This document shows positions 5,184 to 23,052 of a stretch of DNA of 64,000 nt, in pieces. Under the pieces are notes generated by a model. That model had not been told where the DNA came from and made no database searches. It worked only from the letters and a program-made list of their open reading frames with translations. Source of the stretch: Parietichytrium sp. I65-24A. Taxonomy: Eukaryota > Sar > Bigyra > Thraustochytrida > Thraustochytriidae. The position numbers and the translations under genes were made by a program. The stretch is taken from assembly GCA_012862575.1 (NCBI GenBank), contig BLSF01000002.1:372001-436000 (forward strand). Direction: 5' to 3'. Position 1 is the first letter of the stretch. Every line of letters starts with the position of its first letter.

Positions 5184-8100
5184 CTAGGAAGGAGGGAGTG
5201 TCGCAGGAGTTGCCTGCAAAGTCGTCAAAAAATCGGCCGTCTCGACATACTCAAGCACAAGCGCTATAACATGTCTAATGCCAAAGTTGTCCTCCATCTT
5301 ATTGACGCTTATCACTCTGAACCTGCTCCAAGGAAGGATCAAGTACTCGTCCTCGAAAGGTGCTGCCGAGTACTTTCTGACGTACGCCGCAGTCTTCTTA
5401 TCATCTGGTATGGAGACGAACACCATTTCAGCGTAGGCTTCAAGTATTGTTTCAGTCGTGCTCCCAGCGTGAGCACCTGTTGCGTAGTCAACAGCAATAC
5501 GCATCGTCCCGGTACAGGACGAGAATCCCTTTAAAGTCAAGAGCTCATTGGCCTTTTGATGGCCATCGTATACATTATATTGATGGGTGTACACAGTCGA
5601 ATTTGAAAGTGGACGCCCTCGGAAGCACCCTTTTCGTAACAGACCATTTGGATGATAGCCAAAGTGAGGTGGCAAGGCAATTTTGGCGCTTCTGATTACC
5701 GAACGCTCCTCAACAACATCTTTCAGACGTTTAAGATAGCCCACAAATGGGACCAACTCCTGGGCTCTCTTATTCCAGAAATGATCGCTTACGGTCTTGT
5801 AGAGTGTGTATTCGTTCCGAATGATTCCACTCACCCTCTTCAGAGTGTACAAATACAACGCATATTCATTAGAGTTCCAGCTCTCATATCCCTGAGGGCC
5901 GGGTTTGTATGCACCAGCCTCACCCGCAGCCGAACTGGAACCTATCGGTACATACATGTTTCTTTCGGTGAGGATTTTAGTTTTCTCCTCGTCACTAAAT
6001 GCAGCTGGCAGTTCTCTGAGAACATCGCTTCGGAAACCGAAATCGATACGCTTGGCATCGCCTCGAAGATGTGCCCCGCTCGTGGTGTCTGAAACGTCCT
6101 CTAAACTTTGGTGGACTGTTGCTTGAGCACCGCCCCTAAGCACATTGTCACCCAGACCAATAGCAAAGGTATCAGAGCTTCTCTTCCGTACGCAGAGCGG
6201 AATAATATCGTTCGCGAACTTCTGCATATTCACTCCCTCATTCACAGATTCGCAGATCCTCATCACTTTGGCCATAGTATCTTTGATACCGAGCTCGACA
6301 AGCTCTGTTTCGATCGCGCGTTTAAGATGGTCGCCATTCGATTTCACAACATTCGAATTCACAACTGCCTTAAATTGCTTGATCCAAAGTTTAGGTCCGA
6401 AAATGTATCGGGCAAACGAGCTCGTCTTCTTCTTCGACCCTTGCACCTGCGGCAGCTCAAACATGTCCCAGGATAAGTCTGCGCTACATTTCACGCTTAA
6501 ACTAGAGCTCAGCGTCACGTCGGAACAGGTACCCTCCTGTAGCGCATTGTACTTTAGATCCCTCAAATCTCCTTCAGATACTGTTTTTGCTCCGCAGAGT
6601 TTCTTCAGCCTCTGAGTAGATTTTTTATCTCGCTCACTAGCAAAGAAGAGATTGACCCATAAGAGAAAGCCTTCCTCGTCGGTCACGTGACACAAAGGAA
6701 ACGGGTCGGTTCCTTTGACGAGATTTGCACTGTACTCCATCTTCGATGTGATAATTGTGGTTTGGGGTGGCCCAATTTTTTCGCTGACGGCGAGTTCATA
6801 GGCGGCGAGTCGACGGGCGTGAGCATGCATAAGAGATCTCCGCGCAGATTCTCTTAAACACTTGCTGCCAATTGGACATTCCTGACAGGTCGTGCTCAGT
6901 CCTGAAGGGAGCTTCTTTACGACTTCTGCATGGAGCTGCAGGTCCGTCACAGATCCAGCCCAAGGATCTCCACCCGGTTGAAACTCGAGGTCATAAATTT
7001 TGCTGCTGTGAACGCCGTCTTGAATCATCGAAAAGAAACTCTGTCGGGTTTTTGCAGAGACTTTCACGAGCGGCTTTGTTCGGCCGTTCTTTGAGACTCC
7101 TAAATAGCATTTAGGCCCAGTTTGTTTAGTGCCAGCTTTATCCAGAAAAGAGACGTGCATTTCCACGTATGCGCGATCATTTGGTGCAGGAGACACCTCC
7201 AGATTCGTGGAGACCTTGTACCATAGAGCGTCTGAATTTTGATCGACCGAGTAAGTCTTGAGATTGGACCAAACAGGGCGAGGGGGTCCAAGCACGTTAT
7301 TCTTCTCCCTTGCCATGCTCCGCTTTCGGCGATTAGAGGCACCTGAGGCCGAACCATTCTCCTTTGCAGCTTGGTGCTTTGGCTGGAGTAACTTTACCGT
7401 CAAATGTCTCACAAGGTCACTCCGAAACGTTTTCGCTTGAAAAGTACCCGTCGTAGAGGATTGCAATAGACGTGCTCCAGACGTGCTCTCCTCCACAAAG
7501 TCGTCATCGTCGTCTTGATCGTTTGTTCCGAGTAACAAGTCACTTATCTCATCACCAAGCTCGCAAGGAACAAAGTCATCTGGCACCAGCTCCATCAGGG
7601 TTTCTTTGAGTTCAGTCAGCTTCCTCATCGGAAACGTCAAAATATCGAAAATCTCTGAGTAGATGTTGCTAAAGTCCAGTTGCACATGATCCAAGAAGGC
7701 GAAAAGATTCAAATCCAGACCCAAGTCCACCAGGGTTATCTCAGGGAAAATGCCTTCAAAGAGTGCGTCCAAAGGTAACCAATCCAACAACCAGCCCATT
7801 GGTGACAAAAAGTCCGCAATGTCCTCCATTGTAATCGTAATGCCCGGGAAAAGAACGATTTCCGCGCCAAACAAGGTGAAAGAAATCTTTGGAATCACGA
7901 TCTCGAAGCTAGCAAGTTCGGCAAGCCACTCAAGACTACGAAGAACATCCAAAAGCTCGTCCAGGGGCCCAAACATGACTGTATTCAAATGTCCGAGAAG
8001 TTTGGAAAGCGGATTTAGGGGAATGTAAAGTGAGCTTGACAAGATCTGCGCTAGTCTCTGAAATGCCGCAATAATCTCTTCTTCTGCTTTAGAGATTTCC

Positions 8101-11100
8101 TCCATCATAAGCTCAAGGCTTGCAACGACATCCATTCTGTCCGCTTCGTATGCGCACTTGTGACACGCAATCAGGGTAATAGTCGCGAGCGCGAGGACAG
8201 GCGAGAGAGGTAACAGGACCACTGAAATGGCTTGGAGGATGCCTTCCATCTTTGATGCTACCGTCTCCAGGCTGCTCAGCTTGCCAAGCTTGTTGAAACG
8301 CAATGATTCTAATGTGGACTCTGTGGCTTTACGGGTTGGTTTAAACACCACAGTGCGAACAAAATCTGCCCCAGTAGACAAGACTTTACCGACCCATGGA
8401 ATGGCACTCAAAAACTTCCCCGCCAACTTGAGCGCAGTCTCCAGAGCAAGTAAACTTGCGGGCGCGATCGCCAAGGCGTCAATCAACAGTAGCAAATTTC
8501 CCGACACGAGGGAGAGCGTTTGAAGAGCAGCTCCCATGGCCACGAGCGGAGCTTCCGCAGAGGAAAGAGTCTGGTCGAGGGTACGCCTCAGTCGCTCCGT
8601 GGTCTTGTACAGCTGCTTTCCAACTTTGGCATTCGGGTCACGCAGCCAGACCCGCGCGGTGTACTCCATGAGGCTGAGAGTTTCCAACTTTCCTTCAGCT
8701 CGAGGGAAAAACGAGCCTGTATTTATAAAGTCCGGGCAGTCTTCCGAACTGTACAGCTTGTCGACGGAGGATGAGTTGAAGCCCGTGCATTCGCCTTGAC
8801 TAAGGAAAGGAGTGGCTGAATATTCAAATCCGGCGCAGTATTCATTCTCCACGCAGGCCTCTGCACAATCGTCCCGGGAAAGCGCAACCGCAGGAAATGT
8901 AGAATCTACTCGTGAACGGCAGATGGAGGACGTGGAAGACGAGAAAAAGAACCTCACCTTGTGAACGGCAACGTCCACGCCGTTTTCTTTCTGGCAGTCT
9001 TCGTCCGGCCCACTCTCGCTGAATCTCCGCGAGGAGGACAACCAACATGCTTGGCGGTCCCCGGGCTCTGGGGAGCAGTCTTCCATCACGTCAACACAGT
9101 CACGCCTTGAGTCGCAAAGAGCACGGCATTCGTTTTGAGTCTTGTCCTGGAAGCGGAGTTGTTTCTCTGAGTCTTGTGCAAGAATATTGATGAGCATGCC
9201 ATATTGTTCAATGGGGCGCTTCAAATATACACCGCTGCAAGACGCAGACGCCTCATAATCACTTCCGCCAAAGGTGCACAGGCCATCATTCACAGATACA
9301 GTGTAACAATCTGATGACAAGGAGCAGACCCTCTTGCAGTGGGCAATGGATCCACGCACTTCAGTCGTCACCAGCTTTGCCGCGGATGCGCCGTGGCAAG
9401 CCCTTTGTTCCAGATATTTGTACATGAACTCCTCGGCTGCGCTGTGTCGGTAAGAAACTTGCAATACTGTCGACTCGGTGTCGCACGCACACGACCCCTC
9501 CACCCCGCTACACTGCGCTTCCGCGAGTGGCCCTTGCAAGTTGCATCTCATAGTTCGGCGGTCATAATTGAAGCCGTGACAAGCTTGCCCATGAGCGTTG
9601 CACATAGCCTTGCACTCGTCCAGCGAAAACATGTACCCTATTCCGCGCTGCATCTCGCTTGGGAGTGGGTTCTGCCCGCAAGATGTCTCGTCCGAGGTGA
9701 AATAGAGCTCGGAGTGCTCGACATAATAGCCCGGGCATGTTTTACGCTTCTCGCCCCAACTAGAGTCAAGCAGTACGCATTCGCTGCCTTCCTCGTAAAA
9801 AGCCCGACAAGCATGAAGTCCGTCACATACTACGCTGCACATTAAGGTGTTGACTCCTTGTAAACGAAGAAGAACCGCTCCACTGTGGCAGTACCCGCTC
9901 ATTAAAGTAAATTTGTCTGCAACAAACTTGATGTAAAGCCGTCCCTCGCAGGCTATGTCTGCCGCCGTAGTGTAACTTGCGCTGTCCAAAAGGGTGCAGG
10001 ACCTCGACATTTGGTCATAAGTTACGGCAAAGCAAGAGTCGGTTATCTCGCAAGATCGTTGGCACATTTGCAGGCTGATATCCTCCTTTGTGTCTATAAT
10101 ACCATCCTCGCTCGCGGGGCAAGCTCCTGGAATGTGCAGGTGTGAATCGGCGTCATCCCGCAATGAGGTCACCGAAATGTATGCAGAGGCAGAAGGCGAC
10201 AAAGCACAGTTACTACTCTGGAGTGCACGGCCACGGAACATCTGGCAAGTGGAGCTCACGAAATCGTATTCCACGATTTCACATCGTTCCCCGATCGTCA
10301 GGTCCTCGCATGCCTTCTTACAGGCCTCGAGAGAAAGGTACTGTAGAGATGGCGTGATCTCAACTCCTTCAGCGCACAGTCCATCAGGCAGTGGCTCAAA
10401 TTCAAACGATGACTCCCCGACGTAAATTGCAGGCGACTCTTTAGGATTATGAATTTGGTCCACGTACTCGGCATAAAAGCTGCACGAGCTGCCAGAGAAG
10501 GTAAATGCCGCACATCCGCGAAGCATCTCACAGATTGTCATGCAGTCCGCAGCGCTGACGGCAACCCCCAGGCGCAGCCCGTCCGTCATCGGGGCGCCAA
10601 CCGCAACCGCGCGGCCAGTTTTGTTAAAATATTCTCGCTGGACAAGTTCTTCGGAGGCGAACCTGAATTGAAGAGTTGAGTGATGAACAGTTTTATCGGC
10701 CGCAGAAGCTTCAAAATTGGCGCCAGCATACATATTGCAAGCAGAAATGGAGCTGTCAAAGTTCCACAATCTACAGTTCACATTTAGCGAGCAGTACAGC
10801 GAGCAATGCTCCTCCTTCCCAGTAGCATCGTCGAGCATCACCTGCATGGCGCCATGGGGATAAACCTGTCCTTGAAAAGCCACGTACTGCTTGGCGTTCT
10901 CGTTGAAGACGGAAACAGTTTTTTCGTAAAGAATTTGTCCCTCGCTGACCTGATATGTTCCGATATATGAATCGAGCAATGCACCAGATGGGGCTTGCGC
11001 AATGCAGATGCTCGCGTGCGAGTCGTACACAAAGCGATCGCAGCCGTCATCAAGGTAGCACATATAGCGACACCCTTCAAATGACATGCTTGATTCCATG

Positions 11101-14100
11101 ACCGCCTCTTGAATCTCGTACGGCCCGGCAGCAGCCGAACCATTGCTCAGGATTGCCAAGTAGTCGTACGTTGACTGCGTGACGAGAAACAACTCGGGAG
11201 GTCCCTCTTTCTGTGCACACGGCCGTAAGCTTGCGTCGCTTTTAAAGTAACACTCATGAGCATTTCGATCCTGCATTTTCCTGGGCTCCACAGCAACGCA
11301 GCCGAAGAGGGATGCGCAACGTTCCAAGCAAGTGCTGAAGGATGAACTACCAACCTCAGAGACGAGAGGTGTGACCGGCATATCTTCCGCAGTTGGGCAG
11401 AGCCCAGAGTTCAAGTCGATATCTCGCAAGTACTCTCTTCGGGGAAACTCAAGCAGGCCAGCACTCTTTGCAACATATAGAGAGTACTCCTGGGGGTTGG
11501 GGTCGAAAAATGTTGGGCGACATTTAGTCTCGAAACGCATCTCCATGAATGCGAGCAAATCAAGTGTGTGGCAATCTCTAGAGACCGTGTTAAATTCAAA
11601 GCCGAGGCAGTTCTCTCCAAGAGCTTCACATAAAATTCCGCATGACGTTGCTGTCGCATTTGCAAATCCGTTGTTGAAGCTGCTCTGCGGTTTGCACGTA
11701 GAACTGATGAACACGTAAGTGTCACTTTGTGCGACCACGTCCGCTTTACCTTTGCCTGCGCATGTATCGGGGAGCGTCTCACTCTTTGTCACGATCTCTA
11801 CGACCCCTCCAAGCAGACAAGAGTGGGATGCTGCATCATACTCTGCGGCGCGGCACAATGGCGAGTAGTAGCGGCACCAAACCCTACATTCACGGAAGCT
11901 GGGGACGTCGGTCAACTCGAGCACAAGACTGTCTTCCAGCAGGCACAAACTTTGCTCGACTCTTACTTCGTCCGTTCGGACCTTGTAAGGCTGGAGCTCG
12001 ACGTTCTCAGTTTGAAACACAACTGCCTTGATCAGGTCAAACTGCATGACATGCTCGTCCTCCAGAATTGGAGTGCACTTTCTCAGGTCGATCTCCTTGT
12101 ACAGCTGGCACATGGAGAGGACTTCACTGGTGTTTGTTGGAACAAATTCCCACCAGAAACCTTTGCATTCATCGTCCTCGTCACAAGAAATCATACATTC
12201 TACGGGCTTAGCCTCTGGAAATGCCGCACGCAGGTTTGTCACTTCTTCACAGCTCGTGTACGACGCATAGATCTTGCGTACGTCACGCAAGGTCCTTTTC
12301 CCCACCCCGTCAACGAGACCTGACCTAGCAGACAGTTTACGCAGCTGCCTTCGACCATCTGAGTCAAAGAGGCGACGTCTGGCTTCTTGAGTAAAGTCCA
12401 GAGAAATATCGGAGATGTCGACGCGCTTCGCTCCCGAAATCTGGGTTCCAGCGGCGTCGTTTAAGTAGAGCTTTGCTTTATCCAGGTACACATTGCAATC
12501 TGAGCAACCTTCGATGGTGGCAGCAGTCTGGCCTTCCTGAGAGGCAAGTTGACTACTTAGCGCATGTAGTTTCGCGCCACCTATTAGCTTGACAGACTGC
12601 CGTTGTGACTGAAGTTGAGACCTCACGGGCACAAAACTTCCGTTCGAGCCGTACACATGCGCGATTTTTCCCATCTCCACGGTGTTGGCAAAGTATGGTT
12701 CATTGTGCAGTCTCAAATCACTCACAGCAAGTTCGCCATACACCTCGAATAGAGACCCTCTAGTTCCAGCATCGATGGACATCTCTACCTTGAAAACCTC
12801 CGCTCTCCCACTCGACGTAGGGTCTGTCTCTTCTACGCTCTGAATCGTTACCATGACCCCTTCAGGGATTGTCAGAGGACGCTGGGAGGTAATATTGGCT
12901 GTCAGAGAAATGATACCAGACGGGCAAGACTTCACCTGGGCTTCAAGCTCCTGGAAACTGCCAGCATAGCATCTCTTGGGTGCTTGTTTCACACAGCACG
13001 AGCTTGTCGAATTGCCCCATCCGAAGGTTGGGCACACTCCTACGGCACATTGCAAGCCCGAGGCACAGTCGCTATCTTTGACACACTCGCCGTCTCCTTC
13101 TCCACACGGATTGCCTTCGCTGCAAATGCACCCAGCAGCTGAAGAGCAGCGCCGCCTCTCGACGTCTTCTGAGCGCACTGTTTTCGTACAATGTGCCGAG
13201 CCAACATTCGCAAGACTCGTGTCTGGCGCAAGACATAGTCCAAGCATTGGAAAGTGAAGCATGCCGTTTTTGTGCGAGATTATCTGGGCGCTGCCTTGAG
13301 AAACACATGGCAACATACGTAGAGCGCCTGAAGAGGCGTCCAAGCAGCTGCCGGCGGCTTGGAGCCGCCCATTTGCGAATGTCCACGCTTGATGTGACGA
13401 GGTGTTATCACAAGTGCTCGCACTAACTTTGCCGGAACCATCTGTTGCCCGCGTCAGGCACTCCGATCCGCACCCTACTTTCACGAGCGCTGCAGCTGTT
13501 CTGATGGTAAACTGCTGAGCGCTGTCAGGGGATTGGCAAAACCCGTAAAACCGGATCTCGTTTTTTTCGGTGACAAACACGCATTTCCCATTCGCAGCAC
13601 CAATTCTTCCATGCTGATTGATCCAAACTTGCTCATCAGAACTCTTCCCTGGCTTGGAGCAGGTTGCGAGCTTTGGTCGTGAACCGTCCCTCGCGTGAAT
13701 ACATGTTTCAACGTCAGATCTGAGCTGACCATCTTGAAAGATCCAGCTTTGAGCAGTTTCGCAAGAATCCAAACGAAGAGGGGAACCATCCCCTTCATGA
13801 GCCAGGCACAACCCGCTCTCGCTGTGCTCAATTTTGACATACGCTCTGGCCGAAAGCGAAAACCTGCTATTGAGCAGTGCCTCGCTTTCACAGTCGTCCG
13901 AGCCCTCTTCGCTTTCAACGACAAGATTGAGTTGAGTCTCCAAATCGTCAACATGCAGGCACACCTTTGGGACGGTCTCGGTCACAAGTTCGCCGAGCTC
14001 GGACATGCTCAGAGGAAGATCGCAGACATCGAGCAGCCTGGGGGTTCCGCTAGAAAGCTCGATGCACTTGAGCTCACTGGAGAGTACATTGCTGGTTGCA

Positions 14101-14531
14101 TCGAGCAGCCACTGCTGTTCTGCGAGTATGGAGTCACATCGAGACAAATGAATGCTCTCATCGTCCATGCTGCGGGTCAGGCAGGTTCCAAGCTTTTCGC
14201 TCTGAATCTGGACGAAAACAAAATCTCCAGCATCGGAGATAGTCTGGGCCTTTCCGCTGATCTTCTCAGCATCGCATTGGTCCTCAGGGGTATCATCGTC
14301 TCCAGACCCTGCGCCCGAGGAGGACAAACCCACCGCAAGACCGACGGTAACCCCGGAAACAATCAAAATTATCGCGCATACCAGCAACAACTTTCTTTTC
14401 CAGAGGAGGCTTTGCTTGCTTCCATCTGCAAAGTCATCCTCGATACCGGGGCGATGGTCTTCGACTGTGCTCGACACGCTCTTGGCGAATTCATCATACG
14501 AATCTCCCGATACATTTGCTTGTTTTTTCAT
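5184..14531 (-). CDS. giant ricin-lectin/PAN type II membrane protein with C-terminal ADP-ribosyltransferase domain
   Basis: Single-exon frame of 3115 aa from the ATG at 14531; a GTG eleven codons upstream was rejected. One membrane anchor lies at about 48-70 after a short cytosolic tail. Then come ricin-B-like repeats (about 85-445) with four Q-x-W-like motifs, a Cys-rich insert, a beta-helix-like stretch (about 520-740) and about fourteen PAN/Apple-like Cys modules (754-1920). A helical block with hydrophobic segments follows (about 1990-2130), then a dibasic RRKR-S furin-like site at 2401-2405. The last 200 residues match the arginine-type ART (ARTC) pattern: R2971 in GCFRGRPL, S3004-S3005 in GFSSCT, and E3060-D3061-E3062 in FEDEYLILP followed by FRVISV. 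Such domains move ADP-ribose from NAD to protein arginines. The topology puts the domain outside the cell or in the secretory lumen. It is divergent from the PAN/RCC1 gene at 17233. Gene name and substrate are unknown. Confidence 0.85.
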   Translation of the reverse strand: MKKQANVSGDSYDEFAKSVSSTVEDHRPGIEDDFADGSKQSLLWKRKLLLVCAIILIVSGVTVGLAVGLSSSGAGSGDDDTPEDQCDAEKISGKAQTISDAGDFVFVQIQSEKLGTCLTRSMDDESIHLSRCDSILAEQQWLLDATSNVLSSELKCIELSSGTPRLLDVCDLPLSMSELGELVTETVPKVCLHVDDLETQLNLVVESEEGSDDCESEALLNSRFSLSARAYVKIEHSESGLCLAHEGDGSPLRLDSCETAQSWIFQDGQLRSDVETCIHARDGSRPKLATCSKPGKSSDEQVWINQHGRIGAANGKCVFVTEKNEIRFYGFCQSPDSAQQFTIRTAAALVKVGCGSECLTRATDGSGKVSASTCDNTSSHQAWTFANGRLQAAGSCLDASSGALRMLPCVSQGSAQIISHKNGMLHFPMLGLCLAPDTSLANVGSAHCTKTVRSEDVERRRCSSAAGCICSEGNPCGEGDGECVKDSDCASGLQCAVGVCPTFGWGNSTSSCCVKQAPKRCYAGSFQELEAQVKSCPSGIISLTANITSQRPLTIPEGVMVTIQSVEETDPTSSGRAEVFKVEMSIDAGTRGSLFEVYGELAVSDLRLHNEPYFANTVEMGKIAHVYGSNGSFVPVRSQLQSQRQSVKLIGGAKLHALSSQLASQEGQTAATIEGCSDCNVYLDKAKLYLNDAAGTQISGAKRVDISDISLDFTQEARRRLFDSDGRRQLRKLSARSGLVDGVGKRTLRDVRKIYASYTSCEEVTNLRAAFPEAKPVECMISCDEDDECKGFWWEFVPTNTSEVLSMCQLYKEIDLRKCTPILEDEHVMQFDLIKAVVFQTENVELQPYKVRTDEVRVEQSLCLLEDSLVLELTDVPSFRECRVWCRYYSPLCRAAEYDAASHSCLLGGVVEIVTKSETLPDTCAGKGKADVVAQSDTYVFISSTCKPQSSFNNGFANATATSCGILCEALGENCLGFEFNTVSRDCHTLDLLAFMEMRFETKCRPTFFDPNPQEYSLYVAKSAGLLEFPRREYLRDIDLNSGLCPTAEDMPVTPLVSEVGSSSFSTCLERCASLFGCVAVEPRKMQDRNAHECYFKSDASLRPCAQKEGPPELFLVTQSTYDYLAILSNGSAAAGPYEIQEAVMESSMSFEGCRYMCYLDDGCDRFVYDSHASICIAQAPSGALLDSYIGTYQVSEGQILYEKTVSVFNENAKQYVAFQGQVYPHGAMQVMLDDATGKEEHCSLYCSLNVNCRLWNFDSSISACNMYAGANFEASAADKTVHHSTLQFRFASEELVQREYFNKTGRAVAVGAPMTDGLRLGVAVSAADCMTICEMLRGCAAFTFSGSSCSFYAEYVDQIHNPKESPAIYVGESSFEFEPLPDGLCAEGVEITPSLQYLSLEACKKACEDLTIGERCEIVEYDFVSSTCQMFRGRALQSSNCALSPSASAYISVTSLRDDADSHLHIPGACPASEDGIIDTKEDISLQMCQRSCEITDSCFAVTYDQMSRSCTLLDSASYTTAADIACEGRLYIKFVADKFTLMSGYCHSGAVLLRLQGVNTLMCSVVCDGLHACRAFYEEGSECVLLDSSWGEKRKTCPGYYVEHSELYFTSDETSCGQNPLPSEMQRGIGYMFSLDECKAMCNAHGQACHGFNYDRRTMRCNLQGPLAEAQCSGVEGSCACDTESTVLQVSYRHSAAEEFMYKYLEQRACHGASAAKLVTTEVRGSIAHCKRVCSLSSDCYTVSVNDGLCTFGGSDYEASASCSGVYLKRPIEQYGMLINILAQDSEKQLRFQDKTQNECRALCDSRRDCVDVMEDCSPEPGDRQACWLSSSRRFSESGPDEDCQKENGVDVAVHKVRFFFSSSTSSICRSRVDSTFPAVALSRDDCAEACVENEYCAGFEYSATPFLSQGECTGFNSSSVDKLYSSEDCPDFINTGSFFPRAEGKLETLSLMEYTARVWLRDPNAKVGKQLYKTTERLRRTLDQTLSSAEAPLVAMGAALQTLSLVSGNLLLLIDALAIAPASLLALETALKLAGKFLSAIPWVGKVLSTGADFVRTVVFKPTRKATESTLESLRFNKLGKLSSLETVASKMEGILQAISVVLLPLSPVLALATITLIACHKCAYEADRMDVVASLELMMEEISKAEEEIIAAFQRLAQILSSSLYIPLNPLSKLLGHLNTVMFGPLDELLDVLRSLEWLAELASFEIVIPKISFTLFGAEIVLFPGITITMEDIADFLSPMGWLLDWLPLDALFEGIFPEITLVDLGLDLNLFAFLDHVQLDFSNIYSEIFDILTFPMRKLTELKETLMELVPDDFVPCELGDEISDLLLGTNDQDDDDDFVEESTSGARLLQSSTTGTFQAKTFRSDLVRHLTVKLLQPKHQAAKENGSASGASNRRKRSMAREKNNVLGPPRPVWSNLKTYSVDQNSDALWYKVSTNLEVSPAPNDRAYVEMHVSFLDKAGTKQTGPKCYLGVSKNGRTKPLVKVSAKTRQSFFSMIQDGVHSSKIYDLEFQPGGDPWAGSVTDLQLHAEVVKKLPSGLSTTCQECPIGSKCLRESARRSLMHAHARRLAAYELAVSEKIGPPQTTIITSKMEYSANLVKGTDPFPLCHVTDEEGFLLWVNLFFASERDKKSTQRLKKLCGAKTVSEGDLRDLKYNALQEGTCSDVTLSSSLSVKCSADLSWDMFELPQVQGSKKKTSSFARYIFGPKLWIKQFKAVVNSNVVKSNGDHLKRAIETELVELGIKDTMAKVMRICESVNEGVNMQKFANDIIPLCVRKRSSDTFAIGLGDNVLRGGAQATVHQSLEDVSDTTSGAHLRGDAKRIDFGFRSDVLRELPAAFSDEEKTKILTERNMYVPIGSSSAAGEAGAYKPGPQGYESWNSNEYALYLYTLKRVSGIIRNEYTLYKTVSDHFWNKRAQELVPFVGYLKRLKDVVEERSVIRSAKIALPPHFGYHPNGLLRKGCFRGRPLSNSTVYTHQYNVYDGHQKANELLTLKGFSSCTGTMRIAVDYATGAHAGSTTETILEAYAEMVFVSIPDDKKTAAYVRKYSAAPFEDEYLILPWSRFRVISVNKMEDNFGIRHVIALVLEYVETADFLTTLQATPATLPPS

Positions 14532-17232
14532 CTTGCTTGGCCTTGCAGTACGCTCGCTCTGCACCGCGTTCAGCTGGACAAGTTTGCAGACTGCTTGTAG
14601 AGATAGTCAACGCGCTGATCTGCTTGAATGGCTCGAACGCCTGGTAGGATTTGATTGTCTCTGCGAAGTCTGTGGCCGTTCTGTACTTGGGGGATCTTGG
14701 TTTTCGGAAGGATAAGGCTATCTCCAGACTGTGAAAATCTTCTGAAGCCAAGCAGCAGGAAGAGCACCTCGATTGAGTGGAGTTTGAAAGGGATGAGGAA
14801 GCCCTTTATAAGTTCTGGTGGAAGGCAGATCGTCATGTCGCATCTATCGTTTCTCCCGCCCCAAAGCTTACTGTGAGTCGTAGGATGCTACTAGCACCGT
14901 AGTGCCTTCGAGTGACCCCTACCTTACCTCATGTTGGTGTGCAGTCGTTCGTTGTCCAGATTCTCCAGTGAAAGGAAAAAGGATGCCGCCACTTGTCCAT
15001 TCGGTTGTGAGGCAAAAGACGATCTCTCTCGTCCATTTTCAGCTTACATGAATGATCTGGTGTTAATGTCGCCACATTCGCGGAGAGCTCTGATGATTCA
15101 CGGATGAAATCCCCACTGCGAAATGGAAAGACACGTGCAGTCCTAGAGAGTAGAAGTTAAGAGTAGGCCAATAACACTAGTCGTTTGAGCAAATTGCTCT
15201 TCGTCGCGCGCACCGGAAACTAACAGCAACAGGAATCTGCACTTGTCACGTGCCATGGTCAAGGAGATTCAGCTGAGCGGTCAAGATGACATGTGTGCGA
15301 TGTGTAATTTGCAGACTGACAATTAAAATGTGGCTTGCACTTGGATCTCAAATAAATCTGCGAGTCCGAGTCGATGGTAACCCCAACGCATCCCTTCATT
15401 ACCTACCATCATTCACTTCCATGGTACTGTCACCAGTACCAGTACCGCGTCATACACCTTCCTAGCTCAGTGACGTGGGGCTGTGCCGTACTGCCTGAGA
15501 GTACTAATACATTGACGTAGGATACTGGGGTATTGACTGTGAGTGCCAGCATCAAAAACATTCAAAAATCTTCCTCTTAACTTACTGGAAGCCGAAATAC
15601 CGTATGTACATACTAGGTGGTTCTCAGTAATGGCATCCTAAAGTAAGCCATGTACTAAAAGTGTGTCTATATATGTGGGTTTCTTTCGTCGCACACAAAT
15701 CAGCAAATCCAAGATCAGAACGGATTTTGAATCGCAAGATTATTCCTCATCAAAGCCGAGCGAGGTCAAGTTGAGCGTAGTAGTACCAAAAATTGGCCAT
15801 GCGCTTGGCCGGGGCTTAAAAGATATTTCAAGCGGTTTAGAATAGAAGCATCATGACAAACCCATAATCGAGTTTTGGAACCACCCGAATCAAGCTCACG
15901 TCAATTCGGCGCGATCTTGGTACTGGCACATTAGTATCCGCATCCCAGCGCATTCCAGTTTGAGAAGATATTAAGACGATTGCTCACAACACGTGAAAAA
16001 TATATGTGCAATACTGTGACATGAAGGAGGCTTAAAATCTAAGTTCGGCTCCACGCCAGCAAGCCGTGCATTCAATTGCGATCATCAGTGAGTAAGCATA
16101 CTTTCTCAAACTAGGCTCCACCCAATGACCAAAAGATTTATATTTTCCACTTCAATCTACTATTTGTGCTTTAATCTCAGCAAATTACCATTGACAGCAA
16201 GCAGAAATTGCTTACCTCCGAAGTGAACAAAAATCCAGAGGTAAGGAGAAATAGAGTAGCAAAAGAAGGGTGCCTGGCATTTCCGGCTTGTGATTGCTCA
16301 CAACACGTGAAAAATGTATGTGCAATACTGTGACGTGAAGGAGGTTCAAAATCTAAGTTCGGCTCCACGCCAGCAAGCCGTGCATTCAATTGCGATCATC
16401 AGTGAGTAAGAATACTTTCTCAAACTAGGCTCCACCCAATGACCCAAAGATTTATATTTTCCGCTTCAATCTCCTAGTTGTGCTTTAATCTCAGCAGATC
16501 ACCATTGACAGCAAGCAGAAATTGATTACCTCCGAAGTGAACAAAAATCTCTGGAAATAGAATAGCAAAAGAAGGGGGCCTGGCATTTCCGGCTTGTGCT
16601 TTTCTCATTTCCAACTCTTGTAACAGGGTTTGCTGGCTTTCAAAGCGGGTAGGCACATTGTATAATACGGAGGTCTGGTGGCTTTCTACGGGGCTTGAAG
16701 TGAGTCATGCAACGAAGTCAGCAGTGTGCGATTCACAAGCGTCTATTTTTGCAAATCTTCATTCAAAGGCAGAAGAACTTCAACAGGGGACGGTGACGAA
16801 TCATTTGCTGAGTCCTCTTCAGGAAATTCTCGGCCAGTTCAGAAATTAGCACCGGGGCTAGCTCTCCGTTACTGGATCCAGTGCCGCTCTGTTAACGAGG
16901 AAGCTGTTCACAGGTATCACAGGTTGTCAAAGCCAAGTCTTCCATCCACTAATTCTGCAATCTCTCGACAAATTTATACGGAACCTCTAGAGCTAGCCAG
17001 AGTCTGACTGCATTTGGAAAAGTACGCGTGCACTAACTTTCAGTGTCAACTTTGCGACTACAAACTTGCTTAACAATTCCTTAGATTTATGCTGGAGACC
17101 CAACCATCGTTGCCAGACCCGAATCAAACTTCCACAAGCTTTGATCGCTTCAAACGATACTGAATTCGAGCTCGTCAAAATCATCAAACGCAAAGGTATC
17201 GGTTGCTTGGAGTTTGCTGAAAGTTGCTCGAA
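14532..17232. other. divergent intergenic region of two giant surface-protein genes
   Basis: This 2.7-kb spacer separates head-to-head genes and must hold both promoters. No open frame in it is convincing. Short frames at about 16177-16389 and 16474-16656 on the minus strand are two readings of the same tandem duplication. The only clear structure is the 314-bp direct repeat at 15978-16598. Confidence 0.7.
15978..16598. repeat. tandem direct duplication, unit about 314 bp
   Basis: Unit 1 starts at 15978 (GATTGCTCACAACACGTG) and unit 2 at 16292 with the same words. The offset is 314 at three internal anchors: 15978/16292, 16041/16355 and 16201/16515. It falls to 306 at the end (16285/16591) because of an 8-bp gap. 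The copies differ by scattered substitutions, so the duplication is recent but not brand new. It lies about 0.6 to 1.3 kb upstream of the gene at 17233. Confidence 0.9.
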
Positions 17233-20200
17233 ATGAGTCGCCAGACCAGGGTCACCTGGTTTCTTTGGAGTTTCCTTGCCGTCTTGCAGGTTCTCGCTCG
17301 GGCAGCAACATTTCTGCCGTACCCACCAAATCTCTCAACCTTGGCAAGCACTCTGAAATCCTACGAAGCTGGCCTGAAGACGAAAGCAGACTGCGAGGCT
17401 TTGTGTCAAACGAATGACCAATGCTTCGGGTATCTCCTTACTGGAGGATGGTGCAGATCTCTCTTTGATGTTTCCTTTTTGGAGGTAAAGGGACTGCGGC
17501 ATCAAGGTTCTCTGAACGGATTGCATCGAGTAAACGAAGCGGAAGTCTCTCGTGTATTTCGCAAGGTTCAAGACCCTTCGTACAAGATGCTCGAAAAGGA
17601 AGGAATTTTTGACTGCGAGGCGAACCCGTGCGCAAAGGACAGCGTTAGAAATTCTTGTACATTGTATGGAGAATGTGTCTGTGAAGATGGCTATTTTGGA
17701 CCCGATTGCTCGCAGTACAAGAACTCGTGCGAGGTGATTGCGAAGACGTTTGCAGTGAACGACGATTGTCCGTGCGGGACCAAAAAGGTCCTTCGCTTTG
17801 AAGATGTCGACAATGGAATCTACGTCTCTACTTGTGAACAGTTGAGCACAAAGGCTGTGCTAGACATATTGGAGCCGATCTCTGAATGTGCACTGGGCTA
17901 CACCAAAACAAGCAAGTTGAAAGCAAGCGGCACCGAGACCTACCGAAGCTTTGGGGTAGGGACTAGGTGCGAGGTGCCTTCTGATCAAAACTCAAATGAT
18001 ATACGCCATGCAGACTCAAGGGATGAATGTCTGAGGTTCGCTAAAGATTCTAGCACGGCGACGGCGTTCGAGTTCGATACAGCTGGGCAAAACAATGACA
18101 ACGACGTCAATTGCAAAATCTTTAACACCATCTCAGGTGTGTCATATGATTCCGATACCAGTGTTTCGTGCTCTGTAAAAGGGTTCCGTGAGCAGGTTGA
18201 CGGCGTTCCGGTAGAGATCATTCCTCATGAGCGTGCTCTGGAGTTCATTACAAATGCTTCGCATTGCCATGTTTCGCCAAACGTCGGGTTCGCGTTAAAC
18301 AACTCGATTGCCGCAGCTGCCCGCGGGTCAATTCTGGAAAAGCTTGTCGGAAGCGTGGGGTACAAGACAAGCAGTGACATCTTGATGTTGCAAGACCGGC
18401 GCCTCGAGGACCATATGCTCATTATGAGCGATTTCCTGAACCGGGTTCTGGATGAAGAAGGTTCATATTTCTGCAACATTCCCTGCCCGTGCTCGCACTA
18501 TCCGCTACACAAGGACGATACCAGCTGCTCTGGGAGGTACAAAACCTTCCGATCGTCTCTCGAGCATGCAAGAGCCTCGATGAACTGCATATACCGAGAT
18601 GACTGGAATTTTTCCGAGTGGCCCAACGTTCTTTTTCTCAGCAACGCAATGACCTGTGCATTTTGGAATGGTGCAAAAGACGGCTACTATGACTCCGTGA
18701 TGCAGGAAATTAGGTCAAGAGCTTTGGAAGCTGCAGAGAAAACTATGGACCCTGATCAGATATATGTCCTGAAAACATTGCTGTACGAGGAACTTGGAGA
18801 GTGGACGTCCTCCCTGGACCGCACTCCGGCTTCGAGAGCCGAGTTTAGCTCCGCCGGCTACACTGCTCTGAAAAACGCTTTCTCACGTGTTCAAACTAGT
18901 GCTGCAGAACTTCTCCAGACACCGGCTGCAGATTTATTTGATGGAACCTCTTTGAGCAGCGCTGTTCGGACTCAATTGCAGGACTTTGACTCATCCACAC
19001 GGTTTGTACTTTCGCAATTAACTTCACAGTCACATCGCGAATTAATTACCGAAGATGACATAAGGGAGCAGCTTCTAGCTTTCGACAAGGAACTCGCATC
19101 CGCCGTGAATGAGCTCGAAAAAATTCGTACGCCCTTTCAGGAGGAGTTGGCTTCTTTCATCGAGAAGTACCCGGGACCCTCGCCCAAGTTTGACAGGGAA
19201 GTCAGGCGAGCGCTTGCAGCGCTTGGAGTGGTGCAATTGTTCTCGAAAGCGCTAGTGAAAGTTGTAGAGACTATCTCTCTGACACATGGCTCCAAGTCCC
19301 TAACTCTACTCACTACGTGGACAAGCACTTCGTCACATCCGTCTGAAACCGATTTGGAAGAAGCAATTACTATGTTCGGAGTGTTGGCTCTGAGCGACTC
19401 CGCTTTTGAGCAGGTGTCGCTCGCCCTCAAGGAGTTTCGCTCTGCATGGCTCGCTTTGAATGCCATGAACGACGGTAGTGTCTTAGATCTGGAAGGAACT
19501 TCATTCGGAACGTTCAAAAACCTTCTATGGAGAGCGCTTTCTGCGGCATCCAGAAACGCATTGGGTTTAGCGACACTTTCGGGAGCGAAGTTGGGGAGTC
19601 GAGTGATCGTGAAACCGTCGTTTGATTTGGACCCATCAATTCCAGGGATATTGAGCGCTGCCCACCTTGCGAGTGCCGAACTCCTGGGGAGTGTTGCCCC
19701 CCTTTGTGCGACTTGGAATCTTGCCTCATCAACCGCTCGACGCCAAAACATTTCCGAGCGCCTGCTGGAGCGCTTAGGATCAGACAATGATTCAACTCGC
19801 ACATTTCGCGAGACCTTGCAAGGCAAACCAAGCGAAGGGGTCACAAGTTGCGAGGCATATCATGCACAGCTTGAAAATGTCTTTTTCGCGGCACAAGATT
19901 GTTTTCGTGAAGTGAACACTCTCTCGGTCAAGGTGTACGAAGATTTAAGAGATGAACACGCTGTTGGTTTGTTGGACTCGGAGAGCATGGCCAGCTTGAT
20001 CGAGTCGAATTCCGCGTATCGAGCAAAGAGCAATTTGGAAATCCTGGTTCGACAGAGACAAACTCAGGTTCTTCGCCCCTGGAGCAAGAGTTTGGAAATG
20101 TTTTGCGAGGTATACAGCTTTTTTGCGTCCACAGCTTATTCTTCGCTTACTCTGGACGCTGGATTTATGCTTCCGACAAGCACTTGCAAGCTGGAGAGCG

Positions 20201-23052
20201 CCTCAGCACCAGGCTCCAGCATCGAAACTAGCTCCCTTGGAGTTGTCTTGTTTAGAGATGACGGGTCTTCATTCTCGGCTGTGATCAGTGCAGATGCAAC
20301 CGTCGTTCCGCTTTACAGTTCGAATTTAACTACAGTGCATCCGGCTTTTGATGTCAGCACGATTTCGTCATCATTACAAGGGATCCAGGAGCTTATCGGG
20401 TTCATGGCCGGCTTTGCGGCTTTACGTTCCGACGGGAGAGTTGTGGTTTGGGGTTGGAAAGTTTCGAGTAAGTTATAGCTGCCTCTGCCGCTGCCAAACA
20501 ATCACGTCTATTTGAAACCGAAGTGTTCCTGTGCTAACACAATCGTTTGGAACTTTGTGATCGTAGCTGGAAGTATAGACGAAATTCCTCTTCTTCAAAG
20601 CAAGGTCAAGCACATTTACAGGATCGGGGACCACAGGCTGTCGCCAGACGATGGACGTCCGAGTCATATAGTTCCTGTCGTCGGTGGAGATCCTTATTCA
20701 ACAGAATTTTCTATCATGTTTGCATCGGGAGGTTCTGTGCCGACTGGATACATTGCCCGGAGAGAAGATGATGTCGTGGTCATGGTTGGACAGGGGAGGG
20801 TAGAGGGGCTTAATTATACAGCCCCCATAAGCTCGTTTCCGAGCACGGTGGTCACCTTTGAAGACGTTGAGAAAGTTTACAATGTTGGCCCAATTCTTAC
20901 TGTCATACACCGGAATGGAAAGCTCTCTGAACACCGACCAGAAAATTGCGGATCACAGCCGCCGTCCATCGAGCATGTTGACGAGGTATACTACATCTCG
21001 GCTCTCTCTCAGTCTTCCTTGAAAGAGTTGATGGAACTTGAGCCGGTTCCGAACTCAACAATTAAAGACAACCTTTGTAACATGTTTGGGTACACTACCA
21101 TTGCTGTACATCGTGATGGGATGGTTTCCAGCTGGGGATCTCACCCCTTGAGTGAGGATGTGAAAAAACGGATTACACGCGGCGGGGGCATCTCAAAGCT
21201 GCGGCACTTCCAGGGCCCAAGGCGTGATGTGGAACTTGATGGATTCTCGCCCGTCGCTGTTCTTGCTCTCCTGAAAGATAATTCCGCAATCTTTCTCGTA
21301 CAGCCCGAAATGGAAGTGGTTTATCCTGCTGGTGCTGAGCTCACCCCGTCCCTATTGAGCGATATCAAGGACATCGCGATGACCAGGTACGGCTTCACGT
21401 TGCTGCGGGGAGATGGCTCAATGGTTGTGATATTCGGCAAGGAGCAGCGCCACAAGTACGATTCCATCACGTTCAACCATATCTTTTTTGCCAGCGGTAT
21501 CGTCCAGATATTTGATTCATATGAGGCTTGCGCCGTAAATGCGTATGGAAAGCTGGGCTGCAGTGAAGGCAAGAAGATTGTTTTTGAGAACTCGTCTTGG
21601 GAGACTTCGTTTGCAGATTTTAAGGAGCTGTTTGAGAACGATGAAGTGTGGAAAGACCCGAATGGTGATTATGTGTTCCAAAGCAGCATCCTTGCAAAAG
21701 ATGACGCTGTAATGGTAAGCCCATATTACCTCGGGGATGTTGTGAGGAGGAAGAGCGACGGAGCCTTCATATCGCTGAACCTCAGAAAATCCCATTTTGA
21801 CACCGTGGCCGAATTCGACACAGCAGTTTTCAACCCAACGGAATATCTTCTCTTGCTTCAGAAGATTCCCATCAAAAAGATTGACAACACTTTCGGGCTC
21901 GTTCTGTTTGTGGATGGATCCCTCCGAATGTTCAACCCTTCGAGACGGACTTTTCAGACTGACTTCAACAGCAGAGAATTTTCTGATGTGGCGAGTTTTG
22001 TAGGCTATGATGGTGTATTCAAGACTTTCATCGCTATCAAACACTTTGACGGGTCTTTTTCCGCGTGGACAAGCCCCGGCAGTGATGGATCTGGGTTTCG
22101 CACCTGGATTGAAAGCATCAACACTGGGGCTAACTCGGTTGTCGCTAGCTCAGAGGTGTACTTGGCTTCAATTGAAGAAGCTGAGAGGAGCTGGATGCAG
22201 TCAGTGTGGCCGTCCGCTCGGGGTGAAAAGAGCGTTGAGCTGTCTTGTCCCGTCGCTTTTGAAGCAAGAAGTAGATTTGACGTGGTGCTGAAATCGTTTG
22301 CGACTGTGTGTCATGGCCACTCTCAAGTTACGGCCATCAAAGCCGTTCTCGCTGATGAGTCCGGGAAGCAATGGTTTCCAAAAAATGGCACAGTCCGCAT
22401 CTCGCTGAGACCAGTTTCGGGCGTTGATTCCTTCACGTACTCTGTATTCGGGGAAAGGACAGAGGAAAGTCACTTTATCACCGCTCAAAGTGAAGCAAAC
22501 GTGTTTACCTCTGTCTACTCTGCCACGACGACTTGCGGCAATGGGGCTCAAGTTTGCATCGAACCGCAGGTGTCAAATCCCTCTGGCTCTCTTCAGAGTG
22601 ACGGTACCATCTTGCCATTGTTGTACACAACATGGAGTTCCTCTGTTGAGATGACTAACTCGGAGAGCGACACAGCTCCGAGCTCGATCAAGCTTGTATT
22701 TGAGGTGTCAGGATCCCCGTGCGACGCAGACATGCCTGAGGACAGCGCCTTCCACTCTTCTCCACAGCGCATTGCGCCAGTGTCGAGTCTTGACGCACAA
22801 TTGATCGGAGCTGCGTGCAATGGCGGGAGAGGAAGTTCAACTTTAACTGTCCAACCAACTTCGATGCCGAGCGCAGGGCCGACGACTTCGAACGGATCTG
22901 CAAGCACTAAAGAAACTCCGATTCTTATTTTTGTTGGTGCTGCGGTGGGCGGCGTTGTTCTTCTAGGAGCTTTAGTACTTGGGCTTCTTCGATTTCGAAG
23001 GAGTCGAGGAACAGAGGTCTCAACGACGGTCTCCGTGGAAGACAAGCTTTAG
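17233..23052 (+). CDS. PAN/EGF/RCC1-repeat type I membrane protein (two exons)
   Basis: Exons 17233-20467 and 20567-23052 join in frame to give 1906 aa. The start is the ATG at 17233; a TTG three codons earlier was rejected. A signal peptide (1-25) leads into a PAN-like Cys module (about 40-90), an EGF-like module (about 126-162, ending C-V-C-E-D-G-Y-F-G-P-D-C) and a second PAN-like module (about 237-315). A long helical region follows (about 330-960). About ten short repeats of the type LRSDGRVVVWGW, AVHRDGMVSSWGS and LLRGDGSMVV suggest an RCC1 or BLIP-II-like propeller (about 1010-1500). A beta-rich part and one membrane helix (about 1861-1885) lead to a short basic cytosolic tail. It is probably a surface receptor or adhesin; the ligand is unknown. 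It shares PAN-type modules with the divergent giant gene. Confidence 0.8.
20468..20566 (+). other. intron of the PAN/RCC1 gene
   Basis: Donor GTAAGT at 20468, branch-like CTAAC at 20533-20537, acceptor TAG ending at 20566, length 99 nt. It splits a codon after its first base, and splicing restores one RCC1-like repeat. The length is a multiple of three, but the intron holds an in-frame TAG, so retention would end the protein at 1081 aa, before the membrane helix. Confidence 0.85.

Follow-up and report, generated by a model that had tools for sequence, protein, structure and literature searches.

A 64,000-nucleotide stretch of the Parietichytrium sp. I65-24A genome (42.5 Mb in 172 contigs), comprising bases 372001 to 436000 of contig C2 and referred to below as the window, carries near C2:377k a gene for a giant protein that combines a ricin-type lectin block, tandem PAN-like modules, a trunk with hydrophobic segments, and a C-terminal tip that is likely an ADP-ribosyltransferase (ART). 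The best single explanation for this protein, and a tentative one, is that it serves a eukaryote as a surface-anchored ART effector acting on contact. Comparison with its relatives in the same genome shows that the tip is the replaceable part of the molecule: a paralog on contig C50 bears a strongly diverged, ART-like tip with Q-x-E at the candidate active site, and a copy on contig C37 has the same trunk with a different C-terminus.

Architecture of the C2 protein and its C50 paralog

The gene and its architecture are real. Checking of the open reading frame (ORF) and its translation gave a single minus-strand frame (5184-14531) that runs through 3,115 codons without interruption, whereas the first plus-strand frame across the same interval contains many stops. 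The gene start was taken as the ATG at 14531; the frame reaches further upstream, with a GTG at 14564. Ricin_B_lectin (PF00652; E 5.8e-19 in 4 stretches), PAN_1 (PF00024; E 1.9e-23 in 9 stretches), and PAN_4 (E 3.7e-6 in 6 stretches) exceeded the Pfam cut-offs in the whole protein, and the cysteine pattern gives 14 PAN-like modules in the C2 protein and 14 in the C50 paralog. By hydropathy, the sole strong transmembrane segment spans residues 40 to 74. Because this segment is N-terminal and has basic residues (KRK) at its start, the protein is most naturally read as a surface protein of type II. A preliminary description of this DNA had proposed a giant lectin/PAN protein with about fourteen PAN-like modules on a type II anchor, and each of these elements is borne out.

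The paralog (C50:300k) is full length at 3,204 amino acids, 38% identical to the C2 protein, and identical in domain order. Anchor, lectin, 14 PAN modules, trunk, pre-tip domain, and tip follow one another in both intact copies, whose frames are open to their ends. Identity between the two is 35 to 42% in the lectin, PAN, and trunk parts, 39% in residues 520 to 750, 34% in the pre-tip domain, and about 26 to 27% in the tip, which is among the more diverged parts of the protein. The lowest 200-column alignment windows (20 to 21%) cover the end of the pre-tip domain and the linker (residues 2650 to 2880) rather than the tip itself, and the lowest that ends before residue 2700 stands at 28%. Codon positions 1 and 2 are better conserved than position 3 in all 9 of the 9 segments compared, a pattern that fits maintained proteins.

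Some individual parts have resemblances elsewhere. The lectin block (13167-14291) and its C50 equivalent gave sub-threshold matches to PF03498, the cytolethal distending toxin A/C domain (E 0.22 and E 0.016, respectively), which probably stem from the ricin-like fold of the block. The small cysteine-rich module at residues 466 to 520, which both giant proteins contain, recurs, at about 45% identity across 49 residues, at C134:29584-29733 and in a short secreted-looking ORF on contig C61 (L036:3966-4634), whose neighbors are by eye unlike ordinary host genes. A cluster of ricin-lectin matches lies at C71:174470-184455, where the frames are about 1,000 codons long; it is not one of the trunk matches. 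Downstream of the C50 paralog (L007:4242-9558), there are three related small secreted-looking proteins, one of them with PTTAPTTAS repeats.

The C-terminal tip

The preliminary description had called the tip an intact, arginine-type ART domain and had proposed a Pfam search of the C-terminus. In that search, the sole match of the isolated C2 C-terminus was PF01129 ART (E 0.029 to 0.033, 13.9 to 14.1 bits; curated cut-off, 22.3 bits), and the sole match of the isolated C50 C-terminus was again PF01129 (E 0.010, 15.1 to 15.6 bits). The two tips match different, collinear parts of the PF01129 model, and 0 of 10 shuffled tips matched ART. The ART call is made likely by the agreement of the paralog tip, which also matches only this family. 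A search of NCBIfam returned nothing, and the one weak match from each of PHROGs and PADLOC (E 0.31 and 0.1) was to a family either unrelated or unknown. The sole other match to the C2 tip in the genome, on contig C41 (E 0.7), was dropped because it adjoins a frame that resembles a membrane protein with several passes; no stand-alone copy of the ART-like tip was found in the genome.

The candidate active-site residues R2971, S3004, E3060, and E3062 had been picked before the paralog was known. R2971 aligns with R3054 and E3062 with E3149, so both are kept, whereas E3060 aligns with Q3147, which makes E-x-E in the C2 protein Q-x-E in the C50 protein. S3004 aligns with R3088 and S3005 with S3089. 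The S-T-S site is uncertain because T3007-G-T3009 sits opposite S3091-R-S3093 of the paralog. ARTs with E-x-E modify arginine, and those with Q-x-E modify other acceptors; the C2 and C50 proteins may therefore differ in target. The arginine and both glutamates are located where the preliminary description put them, and its ART domain has gained likelihood from the paralog tip while scoring below the Pfam cut-off. Its choice of S3004 as catalytic serine is not supported, since an arginine lies opposite S3004 and S3005 aligns to a serine instead. Intactness is not shown, nor is the arginine type, which E-x-E would fit and from which the Q-x-E of the paralog departs.

Trunk, C37-type copies, and gene neighborhood

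The trunk is common to C2/C50 and C37 (hhalign E 4.4e-13), and only three trunk-bearing genes exist beyond fragments. Two hydrophobic segments, 90 to 110 residues apart, occupy aligned positions in C2, C50, and C37; an approximate score for membrane insertion puts them below the N-terminal anchor in C2 and about level with it in C50. Judged from these segments, the trunk may serve translocation or membrane insertion, and since there are two of them the tip would stay outside. Trunk matches in PDB (E 6e-5 and 0.002; chains sc-apCC) were read as designed coiled coils and helix composition and rejected.

The region after the trunk in C37 has no detectable alignment with the pre-tip domain or tip of C2/C50. 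Homology of all three C-termini was considered and dropped, as the C37 post-trunk region scores at shuffle level. C2/C50 and C37 are related stalks with different C-terminal tips, the C37 copy being interrupted. A C37-type end also occurs on contig C18, without a detected trunk. The C37/C18 end shows an HNH-like spacing (H-GG-N-N), a pattern chosen post hoc, and has no HNH family match in Pfam or NCBIfam; the C37-end alignment found no believable match in PDB. The C37-type copies on contigs C37, C18, C9, and C150 (L008, L031, L032, and L034) adjoin, by eye, members of one gene family, which suggests segmental duplication. No more than 7 kb separates the C37 copy from a contig end.

Besides the gene itself, 8 ORFs of the window were scanned; 5 of these matched a cation efflux protein, Myb, HVA22, a sulfotransferase, and RhoGEF, and the other 3 had no match. 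Two adjacent large ORFs (17224-20478 and 20512-23052; 1,084 and 846 amino acids) have no Pfam match; the 846-residue product ends in a transmembrane-like segment, and the two may form one gene. Elsewhere in the genome, one open frame of 5,583 codons (C66:8562-22499) has polyketide-synthase-like matches. For PfaA-type PUFA synthases, the genome gave partial matches, none of which passed the cut-off.

Table. Features of the C2 gene, with positions in the window
Feature	Position	Strand	Basis or remark
Whole gene	5184..14531	-	3,115 aa, no internal stop
Transmembrane segment, residues 46-74, type II anchor	14310..14396	-	Hydropathy and sequence; basic N side
Ricin-B lectin block, about residues 81-455	13167..14291	-	Pfam PF00652, E 5.8e-19, 4 stretches
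Small cysteine-rich module, residues 466-520	12972..13136	-	Also carried by short ORFs at C61 and C134
Region 521-710, beta-helix-like by eye	12402..12971	-	Sequence only; no Pfam match
Fourteen PAN-like modules, about residues 755-1935	8727..12269	-	Pfam PF00024, E 1.9e-23; cysteine pattern
Trunk, residues 1940-2340	7512..8714	-	Common to C2, C50, and C37 genes
Trunk hydrophobic segment 1, residues 2002-2034	8430..8528	-	Found in three copies
Trunk hydrophobic segment 2, residues 2095-2124	8160..8249	-	Found in three copies
RRKR, residues 2401-2404, possible proprotein cleavage site	7320..7331	-	RRKW in paralog
Pre-tip domain, residues 2405-2740	6312..7319	-	Common to C50; no detectable match in C37
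Putative ADP-ribosyltransferase tip, residues 2881-3100	5232..5891	-	PF01129 sub-threshold; paralog
R2971, candidate NAD-binding arginine	5619..5621	-	Kept in paralog
S3004-S3005, candidate S-T-S site	5517..5522	-	S3005 kept, S3004 not; T3007/T3009 alternative
E3060-D-E3062, candidate E-x-E	5346..5354	-	Q3147-A-E3149 in paralog

Competing explanations and known systems

As a contact-acting effector, the protein would be held in the membrane by its N-terminal anchor, with about 3,000 residues predicted to lie outside. To judge from their families, the ricin-type lectin and the 14 PAN modules may bind sugars and proteins of another cell or surface, and the trunk with its two hydrophobic segments could help the tip to enter or cross the membrane of the target. 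Once there, and perhaps after release by cleavage at RRKR, the C-terminal ART domain would use NAD to modify a target molecule, as the motif and the weak profile matches suggest, and the likely use would be the killing or disabling of prey, competitors, or attackers. Surface signalling or defence, as suggested in the preliminary description, is one role that the protein might play; that C37 has a different end on the shared trunk moves the balance toward a toxin-like effector. A more specific form of this explanation, in our view rather unlikely, is a eukaryotic analog of the polymorphic toxins, in which a type II lectin/PAN platform with a membrane-active trunk would carry warheads exchanged between gene copies (E-x-E ART, Q-x-E ART, and HNH-like nuclease) that kill prey or other eukaryotic microbes on contact.

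Several results weigh against the contact-acting effector. Delivery of the tip into another cell is a step that we infer. The only different end on the trunk belongs to a probably decaying gene, the C37 copy being interrupted. The tip is not alone in its divergence, since C2/C50 identity drops to 18% across the linker and is 26% for the cytoplasmic part with the anchor, and BLASTP between the two C-termini reached only E 0.21. The genome has 3 ADP-ribosylhydrolase and 4 macrodomain places, none of them near the C2 or C50 gene (the closest macrodomain place is about 300 kb from the C2 gene, on the same contig), so that no immunity partner of the known kinds is visible. No relative was found in viral contigs scanned with both tips, the trunk, and the end of C37, in prokaryotic contigs scanned with the tip alignment and trunk, or in plasmids and phages scanned with residues 1750 to 3115. 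With regard to the enzyme itself, neither tip reaches the PF01129 cut-off, ART is absent from the whole-protein Pfam scans of both proteins, and a genome-wide PF01129 search did not pick up the C2 gene (control genomes were likewise without a match). Two of the 10 shuffled tips matched some family, PDB sequence searches of both tips and the tip alignment gave no believable match and no ART, and a single-sequence AlphaFold2 model of residues 2870 to 3115 was unusable (mean predicted local distance difference test score, 32.9).

The lack of ART in the whole-protein scans and the lack of a PDB match speak for a tip that is not an ART, its motif and profile matches being chance in a fast-evolving secreted domain, as do E values of only 0.01 to 0.03 when a shuffled tip could match an unrelated family at E 0.0018. 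We consider this the least probable of the alternatives. Somewhat less doubtful is an adhesin whose tip descends from an ART, is catalytically dead, and now serves for binding, like the former toxin in teneurins. The uncertain S-T-S site, the sub-threshold PF01129 score, and the strong divergence of the tip agree with such a loss, but R and the terminal E are kept in both copies and both frames are open to the end. The main rival, itself unlikely, is an ecto-ART of the own surface, the tip of which would modify proteins of the producing cell or its mates in adhesion, mating, or signalling, without delivery, like vertebrate ecto-ARTs. The type II anchor and adhesion modules suit this role, and no known ADP-ribose-removing gene adjoins, as expected if the cytosol is never entered; however, it needs neither a different C37 end on the same trunk, nor low conservation of the tip, nor conserved hydrophobic segments in the trunk.

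Searches of open-licence PMC literature, at the level of titles and abstract openings, turned up no account of a lectin/PAN/ART combination, and the excerpts of a report on Aurantiochytrium surface proteins (PMC12221091) make no mention of ricin, lectin, or ADP-ribos.

Among known proteins, the PF01129 ARTs (vertebrate ARTC and relatives) resemble the C2 and C50 tips in being the sole Pfam match of both in isolation, in the order of R followed by E-x-E (C2) or Q-x-E (C50), and in predicted extracellular location. They differ in that C2 and C50 fall below the cut-off and that the tip ends a lectin/PAN protein of about 3,100 amino acids anchored in type II fashion; vertebrate ecto-ARTs, in contrast, are small proteins, either glycosylphosphatidylinositol anchored or secreted. 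Toxoplasma MIC4-type apple/PAN adhesins use tandem PAN modules, also present in the C2 and C50 proteins, for cell adhesion, but to our knowledge lack a ricin block, a trunk, and an enzymatic tip.

Bacterial polymorphic toxins (RHS, CDI, and others), according to the excerpts of PMC3482391, combine a stalk that is conserved with an enzymatic tip that varies, ART and HNH/EndoVII being among the tips, and RicinB modules also occur in them. The long conserved stalk, the RicinB adhesion domains, the enzymatic C-terminal tip, and the different ends on related stalks are all shared at this level of description. In contrast, the present family resides in a eukaryotic genome, has a membrane anchor in place of a bacterial secretion system, and comprises three trunk-bearing genes only, with no linked immunity gene found. 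Teneurins, type II proteins thought to derive from bacterial toxin precursors (PMC13018210, in excerpt), are alike in layout only: eukaryotic, giant, and of type II topology, with a C-terminal toxin-like domain outside. The C2 and C50 proteins have their own lectin and PAN array and their own trunk, and neither has a Pfam match to RHS/YD repeats. Because no RHS repeats or immunity gene were found, nor any sequence relative in the viral, prokaryotic, plasmid, and phage collections, we do not regard the family as a member of the polymorphic toxins or teneurins. Bacteria are known to make toxins built of a stalk and exchangeable tips, and teneurins are regarded as domesticated descendants of these in animals; a family assembled from eukaryotic adhesion modules, in which two intact members bear strongly different ART-like tips and a further copy has another end, would suggest that eukaryotes, too, either evolved or acquired this design.
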